NCBI GenBank assembly: GCA_027923505.1
Contig: BROI01000041.1
Coordinates: forward strand, 1-64,000
Direction of reading: 5' to 3'
DNA from: Mayamaea pseudoterrestris
Lineage: Eukaryota > Bacillariophyta > Bacillariophyceae > Sellaphorales > Sellaphoraceae
Length of the DNA: 64,000 nt
Shown: positions 37,745 through 44,946 of the stretch, piece by piece
Layout: every line of letters starts with the position of its first letter
How positions within the stretch are numbered: the stretch's first letter is position 1
The notes under the pieces: generated by a model
Told to the model about the DNA's origin: nothing
The model's input: the letters and a program-made list of their open reading frames with translations, nothing else
Database searches by the model: none
Translations under genes and position numbers: made by a program

Positions 37745-37786
37745 GTCTGAAAGGTGCAAAACCGACTGCCGGGAGGCCTACACCAT
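37745..37786 (+). repeat. sat3 fragment, left flank of element E
   Basis: 42 bp from GTCTGAAAGGTGCAAAAC to GGAGGCCTACACCAT match the 180-bp satellite at 43.8-44.9 kb. The match stops exactly where element E begins, and the continuation of the same unit (GGAATGG...) is found at the other end of E. Confidence 0.85.
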
Positions 37787-37917
37787 CGGCCAGTCCTTTG
37801 TCCTAGCCGACATACCGGCTTGCTGTCATCCAGCCCATCTAGGCAGCTAGCTAGTTGGAGAGACGAGTTGGTGTTAACAGGCAGTTTACTTGCCAGCCCC
37901 CCCACGCCCAGTGTCGC
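37787..37917 (-). repeat. Element E outer B repeat
   Basis: From CGGCCAG at the element's edge to CCCAGTGTCGC. It shares AGCCCATCTAGGCAGCT, GAGAGACGAGTTGGTGTTAA and CAGGCAGTTTACTTGCCAGC with the inner copy at 38145-38260, with several small length differences between them. Confidence 0.85.
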
Positions 37918-37935
37918 GAGGGTGGGTGAGGAGGG

Positions 37936-38144
37936 TGAAGCTTATGAGACTATCTAATGAAGTACTGGAACTGCTTGACTCGGATGTCTGCAGTTGACTT
38001 CGTGCAACAGAATGAGGAGACGAGAATCGACGTCGCGAGGCTTTCGCCGCGCGGAGCGTAGTAAGGCGGTATCAGGTAAAGTCTCGAGTAGGTGCATGTG
38101 CTTCTTGGTGTTCAATTGTGCCCTTTCTCCCCTGCACGGAATGA
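37936..38144 (-). repeat. Element E inner A repeat
   Basis: 184 bp (37936-38119) are identical to 43606-43789. The last 25 bp match 43790-43823 with indels and end in the same GGAATGA. It is immediately followed by the inner B repeat. Confidence 0.92.
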
Positions 38145-38260
38145 CGGCCAGCCTTTGTCCCGCCCGCTGTCATCAGCCCCAGCCCATCTAGGCAGCTGCT
38201 TGGAGAGACGAGTTGGTGTTAACAGGCAGTTTACTTGCCAGCCCCCAGGCCCAGTGTCGC
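38145..38260 (-). repeat. Element E inner B repeat
   Basis: The copy of the outer B repeat, starting with CGGCCAG directly after the A repeat and ending CCCAGTGTCGC. In element orientation it follows the recombinase region. Confidence 0.85.
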
Positions 38261-38391
38261 TCCAACAGCCTCCCATTTCGGAGGAAGTCTGAGAAATCAG
38301 GCCACCGACAAGTCTGGGGGGGCGAGCCGGGAAGAAGCGGCGCCGAGAAGCGCCAGGCCAAGGCATGAGAAATACATGGTTGGGAATAACA

Positions 38392-39295
38392 TTAAATTAC
38401 GGCCGCCGCGACCATAGTGAGTTGGGCGTAGTGGTGCATGGCGAGTGGGCGATGGAGGTGGCAGGCATCGGCAGCGCGAGTCGGTGCGGGGACAATACTC
38501 TCGAGCCAGCGGAGCAGGTGCGCAGCCAGAAGCCGGTGTCGCGAGGTGAGGAATGTCCCAGCGCGGCGTGGGTTGAAGGCCAGCCGGTGCGCGACTGTGG
38601 TGATGTCATGCGGCGGAGTGACGGGAGGGGCGGATGAGCGGAAAAGGAGTTCGCCACGCCGTGGGCGACGACCTCCCCGCGCGTACCATTCTTTTGGGTA
38701 GTGAAAGTCAGGCTGCAACCAGTGGAGCGTGCCATGTCGGCCGAGGTTGCAGTGGCGAGATCCCATCGACCGCCAGCGTGGAACAGCTGGACATCGCAGA
38801 ACCGAAACGGTTCGGAGTCGACTGTGACGCCAGTGTATTCACGGGAGGAGGAGAAGAAGTAGGCGATGGTGCATACGGCGCTGGAGTAGAGCTTGGCGGT
38901 GGAGACACGAGCGCACTACTTGGATCGGGAGGGGCTTGACGCGATTCGGCGGCGGATCGGCGCGGCCAAAGTACTTTGAGCAGGCGTTGGAGGCGAATGT
39001 CGATTTTGCCCGTGGCGTCGTACCGGATGTCGCTGGTCCCCATGAGGGCGAACGCCCGGCCGGACGGCACGTAGGGCGCCTCCGGGGTCGACCGCAGGTG
39101 CGATGTCGCCCGATTGATACAGCTGCGCGAATACCAGTAGGGGTTGGATGTGGGTCGAACAATGGGGCAGTGTGGGCGCCAATCCGCAGGTGCAGAAGGC
39201 GTTCCAGCACTGCCAGCGGTGTCGGCGGACCGGGCGGTAAAAGAAACGCCCCGTTCGGACGCCCGTACGCAACAAAGCGGAGCTGATCGCAGAGC
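38392..39295 (-). pseudogene. Element E tyrosine recombinase region
   Basis: Recognisable family pieces in order: GKIDIRLQRL, ADPPPNRVKPLPIQV, IAYFF with EYTG and FRFCDVQLF, and LTFTTQKNGTRGE. This pattern, directly downstream of RNase H, is what I know from tyrosine-recombinase retroelements of stramenopiles. I could not place the full R-H-R-Y catalytic set by eye. Identification therefore rests on the family pattern plus the split-repeat ends. The region is broken. Confidence 0.7.
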
Positions 39296-41616
39296 TCATG
39301 GCGGGTCGCAGATGGCAGAGTGTCCATGGGAATCCTGTAGGTAAGTGGTGTTAAAGTGCATGAGAAACTCATCGTCGGACAATTCCCAAAGGCGCGACGT
39401 GTCGGCCATGACGTTACAGGGGCCCGGAATGTAGTCGTGTCGCGGGACATAGCGGTAGTGACGCTGGTGCCAACTTTGGAGGCGCAAGAGATACGCGGCT
39501 GGGCCGACGGTGGTCGTGGAGCCGCGTTGTTGCCAGCTGACGGCGGCGACGTTGTCGTGGAGGCTGTGGATCGTGCGCTCGGCCACGTCCGCGAGCTGGG
39601 CGATGACGTCGTGGTGCGCCACGCTGCCGGCCAGTTCCAAGTCGCTGTTGGTGATGGTACCGTGGGGGTTGTCGCTGGACACCAGCTTGGACTGGATGCG
39701 TGGCGTAAAAGGGTGGCGCCACACGACGGGGCGCACCCGACGGTGCGAGTCGGTGAAGAACGCTGCGCCGCCCATGCCACGGCCGGCTGCATCTGTGGTG
39801 CCGGGAAGGCCCGTGGGCTGAGGGACCACTTCGAGAATGCGAGCAGGGCGCGCGGCGAGGCGACGTGCCACGACGCGAAAGTCGGCGAGAAAGGTGTGCA
39901 CGGCGGGCTTCAGGTGAAGTCTCCCTGAGTGCTCGAGGGGGTGGCGAAAAGCCTCTTGTAGCAGACTGAAGAGTCCGCGTACGCCAGGCAAGGCGAGCGA
40001 CATGGAGCGCAGCTCCCCCAATACCTTATGCCACGTTTTGCGGCCCGCGGTGCGTGGGAGGGGATTGACTCGAGTATCGCGTGGAGGCGCGAGAGGCGAT
40101 GCGGCGGTAGCGTGATGGTGCCTGCGACCGTGTCGATGTCCCACCCCAGTATGGTCTTCCGAGTGGACCACGCGCCGTCGCCTTTGCGTAACTTCTTTAC
40201 CGAGATGGGTTCCTGTCGATGTGGATTGTCAGTTGGGAGCAGTGGGCGGAACACCGTGTCGAGCGCGTGGAAGAGATCACGGCGTAGCTGGCGCTGGCGT
40301 GGCCGGCCGCCTTGGCACAGTCCAATGAAGTCATCAACGTACACGTCATGGTGGCCGACAGGTCGTTGGAAGTATGTTGCTGTCGATGTGACCGGGAGCA
40401 GCATCGTGTCCGGAGTCGTGTCGTCGCACGGTGCGTCGGGCCCCGGCGCTGGGAGCGTGTCGGCTTCGCTTTCCAGCCGGTGCGGCGTGGTGTTGTGGCG
40501 TGGCGTGGCGTTGGCGATGTCGGCGATCGTCTCGGTGGCCGACGTGAAGAATGGCGGCGAATGTACCCACCCCATGGGTAGCGTGAGTGGAAAGGCGATC
40601 AGTTGTTCTTCGCCCGGACTCGTGGGAAAGAGGACGCCCAACTTTGGTATGTCGGCCAGCCATAGCCCAATGCGGTAGAAACCGTCGGCGATGTCAATTT
40701 TTGCGAGGCGTACGTTTCCGTAACGTGGATTGGCGCGTGCGATGTTGTACATGATTCGGTGCAAGGCCCGGCCGAATTGCATTGACTCGAATGGTGCGAT
40801 CGGCACGGACTCGTCGTTTACGCCGAAGAAGCTGTAGTCCACGATCGTGCGCGGTCGTCGCTCATGTTGTTCCACGGCGCCCACGGGGCTGAGTCGCAAG
40901 TCGGGCAAGTGGGCGACGGAACTCGCTGGTACCACGATCCAATGTCCCTTGTGTATCATGTCGGCGAACTCTTTGCGCAGAAAAGCTTGATGGTCCTTGG
41001 CGGACTGATGTGGGCCACGGTCGATCGCGGCTTGTCGTCGTTCAGCCGTCCACGGCGCAGTTTGCAGTTGGACGGGCGCGCCCCGGTCCCGAAGATGGCG
41101 TAGGAGGTGGCGCGCTGGATGGTCAATGTCGCAAACCGTGTCGGCGAGGTCCGGTGGGTCGCGTACTCGATTGATAAAGTCCTCCCACGACGTGGAGGCC
41201 TGCAGCGTGTGGTGTGCTTCGCGTACTAGGTCGCCGAGTGGGTCGTCGAGGAGTTGCGCCGGCCGAGGCACCGTGGGTGTCAATGGCCGTGGGGGTGCGT
41301 CGCGTGGACCCCCGCGCGTGTGCGGTGGCGTGCGTGATGCGTCGAAAGATGTCGGTGGGGCGCGAGTCGCTACTTCGCTTGTCGGTGTCGAGGGGTCAAG
41401 CGTCTCCTCGCTGGACTCGGAGATGGACGCTAATGTCAGTCGGAATGTCGGGGTCGGTGCAGCGCGGCGTCTGCGTAACGTGGTGGTGGAGCGCTGGGTC
41501 AGTTTTCCAACGGCTCCGTCGAATGGTGGCTTACCTAGATTAGCGTTTGGGACAAACATGTGACTAGTTAGGTTTTCAGTTAGACTACTCCTACCTTCTT
41601 CGATCCGCCGCCTCAC
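39296..41616 (-). pseudogene. Element E reverse transcriptase-RNase H
   Basis: The RT core is shown by RLAKIDIADGFYRIGL (first catalytic Asp, about 40.69 kb), PMGWVHSPPFF and VYVDDFIGL (catalytic Asp pair, about 40.33 kb). RNase H follows with TDAAGRGMGGAAFF, NSDLELAGSVAHHD, LHDNVAAVSW and YIPGPCNVMADTSRLWEL (the D-E-D-D set). The RT clade is clearly different from the Copia elements here and fits DIRS-order RTs. It lies between gag and the recombinase. It is partly readable but not whole. Confidence 0.85.
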
Positions 41617-41682
41617 TTGACGACCCTCCCAAAGACTTGCAGGCTGTGACCGTTGCGCGCCAGGCGACGGCCTGCCGACCCC

Positions 41683-43510
41683 CTACGGGGACGGCACGGA
41701 CTGGCACCAGGCCACCAAGCGCGCCGTCTCAGTCGGCGTGTGGGGGCCATGGTCGGCGCAGCGTGCGCACGCTGTCGTGCAACTGCCTCGCACATGGTAG
41801 GTTAGACACATCGGCGTGCCGTCGTCGCGTACCGGGAAAGCGCCGCGTCCGGCCGTGATGTTCCCAATGCGGAAATTCGGCTCCTGGGCGTTGCGAAAGG
41901 CAAGGAGTTCCGGAGGTGTGTCGGCCGCCGGGAGGGCCTCGCGCGTGCCGCCTCCACCGCCGCCGCCGCCTGCGCCGCCGCCACTTTGCGTGCCGCTTGA
42001 GCCTGGAGCGGCACCGCCGTTGCGTGGTGCGCCGCCACCTTGCGACGCTCCCGTCCGGGTGCCCGTTCCCCTTGTCGAAAGTGTCAAGTCATCCGAGGGT
42101 CCGCCGTCGACGATGCCTCCCCACGCCCCAGGTGTGCGCGGTCCGAGGCCCGGCAGCTCGAGGTCGTACCAGCTGCGGTCTTGGTAGTTCCACATGCGGA
42201 GGAGACTGAGAAGCGCGCTGGCTGTCGTGTCCCGATCATCCGCCAAGTCGCGAAGGAAGTGGCCGACACGGATCTGGATCCAACGCATCGCCTTGCTTGG
42301 ACCTTTTTCAATGCGGCCGAGGTAGCCTTCGTAGTCGTGCTCCTTCTCTCGGTACATTACCATGAACGTGTCGACTGTTACCGTGAGCGTGTGCGTCGCC
42401 CCTAGTACCTGCTTGAGTACCTTGAGGTAGGCTTCCATCTGCGAGCGGAACTGAGTTGGGGTGTTCGGGGCGAAGATCTTGCGATTCGCCTTGCGGAACG
42501 AGCGGGCGTCGCGCAAGTCCACGGACCCCCCCTTCAAAGACCAGTTGGTGGTCTTCCACGTTGGCTTGGATCTCAGCCGTTCGAGTCGATGCTGAGTTAG
42601 TGCTGGTGTCGAGCGTGGCGACGATAAACGGCTGGAGGCCTTGCGTCAGGTCGTTGATGTTGTCGGGCGCCGACGCGTTGAGGAGGCTCAAGTGCGCTGG
42701 CGTGGCGATGGGGCGGCAGCCTGGCCCGCCCGACTGGCGGTAGGCGTCGGCCAAGTTGTTCAATGCGTTGGCGCTGGTGCTACCCGCGAGGACCGCCCAG
42801 ATAGGCGGCCACGCGTCGCTGTCGTCCGTTCCCAGTAGGCGCCCCAGCAAGTTCATGCCGCCTACGCCGAACGTCTTGGTGAGTTGTGTCGCGGGGTCCG
42901 TGTCGTCTTTGCGTGATGCGCTGCGTTCTTGAGCGAGGAGCGTCATCAGTCGGATGCTGTCGATTGGGGCTTGAGGCGGCGCCGGCAGCGGAAGGTACAT
43001 GCGATGCACGGCGACACGCTGCTCGGCGAGGGATTGCGTCATCAGCACTGGCACTGGCGGCGGCGCCAAGGCGAGCGACGGTGGTCATTGTTCCGCTCGG
43101 CTGGCGCAGACAAGGAGAAAGTCGAGTAGTTCGCGATAATTGTCGACCCGATCGACCGCTCGCGGCGAACCACGGTGCGGTAGGCCTTGGGGGGGTCGTA
43201 GTGGTGATCCATCAGAAGCTCCACCAGCTCGTGCTGCAAGTAGCACGTGCGTCGCACTCGCGCCACGCATCCCGGAAGCGGGTCGCCGACCAAATCATCC
43301 ATGAGTTGAGTTGCCTAATGCCGGTCAGACGGCGGAGCACTGTCGGTTGTTGTGTCTGCCCGTGTAGGGTTGACGTCACATGCCCTTCGCCCGACGCCAT
43401 CGAGTGAACTCGCTGACGACGGAGGCGGAACCTCGCCGTGAACGTCCAGTGAGAAGCTCGAGAAAGTAAGCGCACGAGTGGAGTGCGGAACATGCACCAT
43501 TCTAGCAATG
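41683..43510 (-). pseudogene. Element E gag with zinc-finger-like C-terminus
   Basis: The N-terminal half is rich in Ala/Leu/Pro with no recognised fold. The C-terminal half has a helical segment (YREKEHDYEGYLGRIEKG), a Gly-rich linker and, near its end, a Cys/His cluster (MCLTYHVRGSCTTACARCADH), which I know from gag-like proteins of this element type, and which would bind nucleic acid. It is the first coding region of the element, starting after the 5' A repeat. The frame is broken. Confidence 0.75.
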
Positions 43511-43605
43511 AGGTCGTCTGCTGTCACGCGACGGAGGCGTTGGTCGAGATGCCGGCGGGGCCCCCAATGGCGTGAGGGACAGGAGGAGCGTCAGCCATGG
43601 TAGCC

Positions 43606-43823
43606 TGAAGCTTATGAGACTATCTAATGAAGTACTGGAACTGCTTGACTCGGATGTCTGCAGTTGACTTCGTGCAACAGAATGAGGAGACGAGAATCGA
43701 CGTCGCGAGGCTTTCGCCGCGCGGAGCGTAGTAAGGCGGTATCAGGTAAAGTCTCGAGTAGGTGCATGTGCTTCTTGGTGTTCAATTGTCCGGTGCGGCT
43801 TTCTTCCCCCTGCACCGGAATGA
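43606..43823 (-). repeat. Element E 5' A repeat
   Basis: The first 184 bp are identical to the inner A repeat. The outermost 34 bp form a potential hairpin with perfect arms CCGGTGC and GCACCGG separated by about 15 bp, then GGAATGA at the element's end. The inner copy has a shortened version of the same hairpin. Confidence 0.9.
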
Positions 43824-44946
43824 GGAATGGCCTGCAGGCTGGGTGTGGCCAACACCCCAAATTATGGAATCGTACCACTACAATGCCCCGTGCCCTGGCC
43901 ACCCAACAACCCAATGAGTCAGGCAAAACATGTCCAGGGTGTGCCATGGACATGAGGATGGTCTGATATGGTGCAAAACGGACTGCCTGGAGGCCTACAC
44001 CATGGAATGGTCTGCATGCAGGGGGTTGCCAACACCCCAAATTATGAAATCATACCACTACAATGCCCCGTGCCCTGGCCACCCAACAACCCAATGAGTC
44101 AGGCAAAACATGTCCAGGGTGTGCCATTGAAACGAGGATGGTCTGACATGGTGCAAAACAGACTGCCGGGAGGCCTACACCATGGAATGGCCTGCAGGCT
44201 GGGTGTGGCCAACACCCCAAATTATGGAATCATACCACTACAATGCCCCGTGCCCTAGCCACCCAACAACCCAATGAGTCAGGCAAAACATGTCCAGGGT
44301 GTGCCATGGACATGAGGATGGTCTGATATGGTGCAAAACGGACTGCCTGGAGGCCTACACCATGGAATGGTCTGCATGCAGGGGGTTGCCAACACCCCAA
44401 ATTATGAAATCATACCACTACAATGCCCCGTGCCCTGGCCACCCAACAACCCAATGAGTCAGGCAAAACATGTCCAGGGTGTGCCATTGAAACGAGGATG
44501 GTCTGACATGGTGCAAAACAGACTGCCGGGAGGCCTACACCATGGAATGGTCTGCAGGCTGGGGGTGGCCAACACCCCAAATTATGGAATCATACCACTA
44601 CAATGCCCCGTGCCCTGGCCACCCAACAACCCAATGAGTCAGGCAAAACATGTCCAGGGTGTGCCATTGACATGAGGATGGTCTGAAATGATGCAAAACG
44701 GACTGTCTGGATGCCTACACCATGGAATGGTCGGCAGGCTGGGTTTGGCCAACACCCCAAATTCTGCAATCATACCACTACAATGCCCCGTGCCCTGGCC
44801 ACCCAACAACCCAATGAGTCAGGCAAAACAAGTCCAGGGTGTGCCATTGACATGAGGATGGTCTGACATGGTGCAAAACGGACTGCCTGGAGGCCTACAC
44901 CATGGAATGGTCTGCAGGATGGGGGTGGCCAACACCCTAAATTATG
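43824..44946 (+). repeat. sat3: 180-bp satellite, about 6.2 units, two-unit higher-order repeat
   Basis: Landmarks such as CATACCACTACAATGCCCCG repeat at exactly 180-bp spacing (43871, 44051, 44231, 44411, 44591, 44771). Odd and even units differ: TGCATGCAGGGGGTTGCC is found in the units at about 44.01 and 44.37 kb, and TGCAGGCTGGGxGTGGCC in those between. This gives a 360-bp higher-order period. Each unit of the second type has the dyad GGGTGTGGCCAACACCC. Short open frames across the array are by-products (180 is divisible by three). Confidence 0.95.

Follow-up and report, generated by a model that had tools for sequence, protein, structure and literature searches.

Introduction

Which kind of retroelement occupies positions 37787-43823 of the present DNA, and how do elements of its kind close their ends, choose a target and express pol? 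For tyrosine-recombinase (YR) retrotransposons, circle closure, target choice and pol expression are known mostly from models. A sequence-only reading had described the locus as a YR retroelement of the DIRS order with split direct repeats, inserted cleanly into one satellite unit. Because the same genome offers three related families of such elements, with a large number of exact ends, open frames in some copies and two satellite sites whose empty state can be read cleanly, end-joining and target choice become testable. The analysis also suggests stop-codon readthrough as a route to pol in the Ngaro-like group.

Genome sequence and searches

The genome searched comprises 30.6 Mb in 41 contigs, and the window, i.e., the whole stretch of 64,000 nucleotides that was analysed, corresponds to bases 1-64000 of contig C41. 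Coordinates are those of the window, repeats are named in the minus-strand sense, the copy in the window is called W, and other copies are named by contig. The light-harvesting family PF00504 has 53 matches in the genome (exon pieces counted apart), which show the host to be a photosynthetic alga; a stramenopile host is plausible from the many light-harvesting genes, and two of the light-harvesting proteins are, we presume, diatom-like.

Matches to the element were found in at least 22 places for the end region, at least 31 for the reverse transcriptase (RT) ORF and at least 38 for the YR, these lower bounds including W itself, fragments and distant families. Searches with the RT ORF and the YR also led to two related families, called families 2 and 3, in addition to family 1, to which W belongs. 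No relatives were found by scanning in viral contigs.

Repeat structure of the window copy

The element lies on the minus strand. Its 5' end in sense is the A1 repeat (43606-43823, minus), whose outer end in plus reading is ...CTGCACCGGAATGA and which is identical to A1 of the C9 copy at 218/218 positions. Its 3' end in sense is the B2 repeat (37787-37917, minus), which has the outer end CGGCCAG in plus reading and is identical to the C9 repeat at 130/131 positions. Inside these ends lie B1 (38145-38258, minus), an internal copy with many small deletions, and A2 (37936-38144, minus), an internal copy joined to B1 at 38144/38145 (GGAATGA|CGGCCAG); an 18-nt segment (37918-37935, minus) separates A2 and B2. 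The order A-ORFs-B-A-B proposed earlier is thus read on the minus strand as A1-ORFs-B1-A2-B2. Two 184-bp repeats had been reported as identical, and 37936-38119 and 43606-43789 do agree at 100%; they are the core of the A repeat, whose full length is 218 bp (43606-43823). Alignment of A2 (209 bp) with A1 gives 208 matches and 11 gapped letters, and that of B1 with B2 (131 bp) gives 108 matches, 1 mismatch and 27 gapped letters.

The internal junction had been taken to be the two outer ends joined. This holds in W for the 14-base core GGAATGA|CGGCCAG at 38144/38145, but beyond the core the internal A-B region of W departs from its own joined outer ends (1 mismatch, 38 gapped letters), the outer ends being better preserved than the internal joint. 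When the joined outer ends of W are compared with the internal joint of C9, 348/349 bases match, and at the level of sequence the internal B1/A2 joint is thereby shown to equal the two outer ends joined. The internal joint was read in eight copies (W, C9, C12, C8, C7, C20 and a pair on C11). The 14 bases are unchanged in six of them; C12 has one change, and C20 departs after GGAATGACG. The decayed joint of C9:121k also differs.

The GC content is 61-63% in the three 2-kb bins over the element and 45-56% elsewhere in the window. In 38120-39400 and 43100-43550 (L040, L041), patches of about 100-300 bp rich in small deletions alternate with sequence close to C9. Mosaic recombination with decayed copies could explain this patchwork, as could deletion confined to these patches or noise in the assembly.

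Termini of sibling copies

The search for other copies found siblings that share the ends of W and have other flanks. Right (A) ends were read in seven copies (W, C9, C30, C12, C20, C4:1178k and C12:362k), and all seven end in CTGCACCGGAATGA and then exit the element. The right flanks are six distinct ones, since C20 and C4:1178k have one flank in common. Copies ending at A without B, which the earlier reading had named as evidence against split repeats, were looked for among the two-ended copies W, C9, C30 and C12; all four have B at the opposite end, with small changes in C12, so copies do not end at the A repeats.

The two identical 184-bp direct repeats might be taken for the LTRs of an LTR retrotransposon. 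We rejected this and regard it as next to impossible, since it is contradicted by the copies read: the termini are not LTRs but constant ends (7/7 right ends, and B at the left end in 4/4 two-ended copies), a B repeat lies outside one of the A repeats, target duplication never exceeds 1 nt in the four copies with both flanks read (W, C9, C30 and C12), a YR is present, and the C9 frames have no integrase or protease family in Pfam.

Several siblings have peculiarities of their own. The cleanly inserted copy at C30:215155-219593 (L040) has the form A-ORFs-B, without A2 and one B. Later recombination between its B repeats is somewhat the likelier origin of this form, as compared with integration of a single-joint circle: recombination of B with B would yield exactly A-ORFs-B, and both outer ends are exact. 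Nothing decisive speaks against it, this being the single such copy read. At C11:20455-24505 (L002, L003), one copy lies inside the RT of a same-family copy, its left flank being RT sequence found at window position 40951; the starts of the two units lie 3405 bp apart, their sequences are nearly the same, and at the 5' end a GCAGTGAG-type tandem repeat is entered. In C20, small deletions extend into the flank common with C4:1178k, which we take to be copia-like. The copies C7:44601 and C11:571580 (L007, L075) have their left flank in common, and one of them has only a 93-bp piece of B; this piece is 100% identical, yet its flank shows small changes.

Genes and class of the element

The C9 copy has three open frames, measured from stop to stop: a gag-like frame of 720 aa, a pol frame of 931 aa and a YR frame of 381 aa, the last of which overlaps pol by 457 nt. 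W is broken in all three genes. Its gag-like ORF1 remnant (41686-43619, minus) aligns by tblastn with C9 gag in four pieces in three frames, and has a zinc-finger-like C-x8-C-x3-C-x5-H near its end at about 41741-41808; such motifs, found by eye as C-x8-C-x3/4-C-x3/5-H, lie near the gag C-terminus in families 1 and 3. The pol remnant (39056-41682, minus), with putative RT (YVDD) and RNase H, likewise aligns with C9 pol in four pieces in three frames. The YR remnant (38601-39350, minus) matches in one piece at 48% over residues 1-259 of 381; a separate comparison gave 54% over residues 1-260, with one TAG inside.

Searches of RT and YR against Pfam, PHROGs and solved structures were weak or empty, and both proteins are too diverged for firm Pfam matches. 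RVT_1 is matched by W pol at E 0.23 and by C9 pol at E 0.057, below the curated cut-off, the YVDD and RNase H Asp/Glu motifs being recognized by eye. Pfam gave no family for C9 gag and C9 YR. That sibling copies do encode a YR is seen in an alignment of nine YRs from the three families: Phage_integrase is matched by six of the nine (best E 0.005), with no match for the family-1 member shown first in the alignment and for C9 YR, and the columns of the Arg box, the box II Arg, GRW and Tyr are found in all, the exception being L070, whose Arg box has Cys. In box II, families 1 and 2 have Arg where His is usual, and family 3 has His (YRs of L044 and L046). A YR profile searched against solved structures reached the Cre C-terminal motif at E 1.4, outranked by four urocanate hydratase entries (E 0.34-0.38), which are taken for chance matches.

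From these data, the minus-strand element at positions 37787-43823 is very probably Ngaro-like, a YR retrotransposon copy that is defective. The proposal of a DIRS-order element is therewith supported, and we add the strand, the defective state and a group: the class is best narrowed from the DIRS order to Ngaro-like, since split direct repeats lie downstream of the YR and a weak test found no methyltransferase. The split direct repeats A1-ORFs-B1-A2-B2 are present in W, and so are the YR (38601-39350, minus) and, downstream of it, the internal repeats B1/A2 (38258-37936). Inverted terminal repeats and an internal complementary region of the DIRS1 type are absent from the window element, where the sole inverted pair of at least 20 nt (41954-41983 and 43055-43084, 73%) lies within the ORF region. 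Membership in the PAT-like or Toc-like part of the DIRS group is improbable: PAT elements likewise bear split direct repeats (PMC4157794, in the portion available), but they are defined by a methyltransferase, and Pfam, searched to E 10, gave none in the three open C9 frames; this test is weak for these sequences because RT itself barely scores. The layout found here is already published for Ngaro elements, and the window element adds one more element of the Ngaro type.

Related families and the gag/pol stop

Family 2 (C24:355k, C29, C11:262k and C4:406k) has 46-56% protein identity, and family 3 has about 22-32%. Both likewise carry the B-A|B repeat arrangement: a pair of B copies in direct orientation, the inner one immediately preceded by the A end, was found in three family-2 copies and in six family-3 loci representing four subfamilies (C12:310k and C7:63k; C17; C24:255k and C5; C10a).

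In W, a single UAG (41683-41685, minus) separates gag and pol, with the same frame on both sides and predicted hairpins around and after it, and is a candidate readthrough site. A gag/pol boundary with UAG was found in five of six family-1 copies (W, C9, C30, C12 and C11; not C4:192k), gag and pol being read in one frame in C9 and W. Family 2 has a single UGA with gag and pol in one frame in 3/3 copies examined, C4:406k being set aside in the stop and joint tests. Family 3 has UGA directly before the pol frame in seven of eight loci (C17, C4_991, C12, C24_255, C10a, C10b and C19; not C5), and on the gag side the same frame is open over the 13-107 codons covered; in C5, the stop-plus-hairpin motif is unmatched and the frame arrangement differs. 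In six copies checked, the pol frame has no Met until 42 to 209 residues beyond the stop.

A predicted hairpin starts 6 nt after the family-3 UGA. The alignment, from which C5 (no motif match), C7_63 (ending short of the stop) and C10b (same as C10a) were left out, has 92% of 87 cells paired, compared with 30-62% for slid structures, and its covariation score was reached by 1/500 shuffles. Three of the 15 pairs change on both sides, a number equalled by 70/500 shuffles, and 11 of the 15 never vary. Conservation of the peptide xSSTWxA after the family-3 stop was rejected as an independent proof of translation, since its codons form an arm of the hairpin. Of 1072 fold windows in family 1, the top two fall on the gag/pol boundary, where the UAG is placed in the loop of a predicted hairpin and another predicted hairpin follows just after.

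Since gag and pol are in one frame with a single stop in three families, and a covarying hairpin follows the stop in one of them, pol is probably made by readthrough; the data suggest programmed stop-codon readthrough as the simplest explanation.

Stem-loop at the B/A joint

A predicted stem-loop is found at the joint in two of the families. It consists of GGAATGA|CGGCCAG, 9 nt and CTAGCCGACATACC in family 1, and of GGCAAAGA|CGGG, TTTC and CCCGTCTTAGCC in family 2, so that in both families the joint would fall within an arm, away from the loop, which sets it apart from a classical core site. The joint RNA has a fold z of -3.8 in family 1 and -5.6 in family 2. In family 2, the joint stem is found in the three best of 885 fold windows, a scan that covered the element except its 5' end; among the 1072 windows of family 1, those at the joint rank third and fourth by z, and the two at the gag/pol boundary come first. 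The joined outer ends of W fold at -25.6 kcal/mol; its internal joint reaches -17.2 kcal/mol and no longer forms the full stem. No joint stem was found in family 3 at any of six loci from four subfamilies, where 134-259 of 300 shuffles reach the score and z is -0.15 to 0.49.

The joint stem might be a functionless by-product of a hairpin inside B, which we regard as rather unlikely. Indeed, B alone contains the inner base pairs (7 in family 1, 4 in family 2), the stem is absent at the six family-3 loci, and the joint of family 1 is surpassed in folding by two gag/pol windows. Against this, the inverted-repeat score was reached by only 1/300 dinucleotide shuffles in family 1 and 0/300 in family 2, and the outer arm crosses the joint with 5/7 matches in family 1 and 7/8 in family 2, the sequences of the two families being unrelated. 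At the target flanks, the outer-arm matches fall to 0-4 of 7 in ten family-1 flanks and 0-1 of 8 in two family-2 flanks, C11:262k (with small changes in its B end) having been set aside in family 2. The complete stem is thus found at joined ends and is missing from the outer B end. A stem with a function at the joint is therefore preferred, and it may position the ends for closure or serve as the YR site.

Imperfect inverted repeats around a 6-bp spacer (CTGcaCCG-GAATGA-CGGcCAG) were another candidate for the YR site, dropped because a systematic scan ranked the B-spanning stem higher. Since the joint lies in a stem that is completed only by joining the ends, the YR might act on a folded single-stranded cDNA circle and not on a double-stranded one, as integron integrases do on folded attC. 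We give this little chance; with such a substrate, the lack of target identity and of duplication at insertion would be understandable.

Insertion sites

The claim of a clean insertion into one satellite unit is borne out by the phase across the element, 6217 = 6037 + 180. The left remnant of the interrupted unit (37753-37786, satellite family D6) and the in-phase continuation right of the element (43824-44003, 180-bp units) show that no satellite base of the 180-bp unit was lost or duplicated. In the alignment with intact units that had been proposed as a check, the joined flanks of W align across the joint to six satellite units with one gap opening each; in the one unit inspected, the gap falls at 37750/37751, on the unit's ragged left edge and away from the joint. 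The joined flanks of C30 form an intact unit of another satellite, which is found in the window; 68 of the 113 joint-spanning alignments with satellite units of the window are gap-free, the best having 95.5% over 200 nt.

A 3-bp identity between joint and target as in DIRS1 was sought and is not evident: the A end closes with TGA, which is found at the end of 0/10 left flanks, and the B end opens with CGG, which is found at the start of 1/7 right flanks (C12:362k). These flank counts leave out C11:571k, whose flank is the same as that of C7. At the left end of C12, the boundary can be placed in more than one way within a few bases (AATCGG|CCGCCAG), and under no choice does its flank end in TGA. 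Four of the ten left flanks are in satellites of the window (W, C30, C18 and C8); of the rest, five match nothing in the window apart from the element, and C12 matches over 25 bases only. A preference of family 1 for satellite DNA is possible.

Proposed mechanism

The comparison of copies shows, in their sequences, the anatomy A1-gag-stop-pol(RT-RNase H)-YR-B1-A2-B2, constant termini and clean insertion without target duplication. An RNA from A1 to B2 would be translated into Gag, with Gag-Pol coming from readthrough of the gag stop and the YR from the frame overlapping pol. The repeats would be used in reverse transcription to regenerate complete ends, and a cDNA circle would be formed in which A1 adjoins B2. 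The YR would then recombine the circle joint with chromosomal DNA, identity to the target not being needed; the joint stem of two families may help by bringing the ends together or be the recombinase site itself.

Comparison with known systems

DIRS1-like elements are, in the part of the source available, like the window element in being YR retroelements with a circle-joint model, no target duplication and an overlap of pol and YR (PMC3266345). They differ in having inverted terminal repeats with an internal complementary region and in integrating at a 3-bp identity of joint and target (PMC3266345), which is not evident here. For the gag/pol boundary, murine leukemia virus (PMC4178896) and Tca2 (PMC2194720), as described in the portions available, have gag and pol in one frame, one stop and a 3' structure as here, the last being a potential pseudoknot 3' of the gag-pol stop in Tca2 (PMC2194720). 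Both are of other element classes (PMC4178896, PMC2194720), and readthrough in the present element is predicted from its sequence.

The Ngaro-like DIRS-53_XT of Xenopus has, according to the accessible part of its description, split direct repeats, overlapping ORFs and no methyltransferase (PMC9210276). Its repeats are 236 bp (A) and 152 bp (B), as compared with 218 and 131 bp here, and it has an extra SGNH hydrolase ORF (PMC9210276), for which the three C9 frames gave no Pfam match. In Ectocarpus, 15 Ngaro families have been described (PMC12477816), and in fungal Ngaro elements the YR can use another frame than RT-RNase H (PMC3783388); both belong to the same superfamily as the window element, likened here by description only and from the parts of these sources available.

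No paper title on Ngaro in a diatom was found in the literature searched, in the portions available. The same literature, beyond whose reach the original Ngaro descriptions lie, gave no description of readthrough in Ngaro-type elements, and none of a joint stem.

Cafeteria burkhardae is a stramenopile. In the accessible text on its Ngaro elements, the words readthrough, frameshift and hairpin have no occurrence, and the one stop-codon passage concerns virophage genes (PMC8547959). Its YR is described with His-X-X-Arg (PMC8547959, same text), whereas families 1 and 2 of the present genome have Arg in the place of that His. In the same part of the source, the Cafeteria Ngaro is described as A1-[ORFs]-B1A2B2, with a Gag-like ORF1, an RT-RNase H ORF2 and a YR ORF3, and it is like the window element in layout, in its set of ORFs, in being GC-rich and in its length of about 6 kb (PMC8547959).
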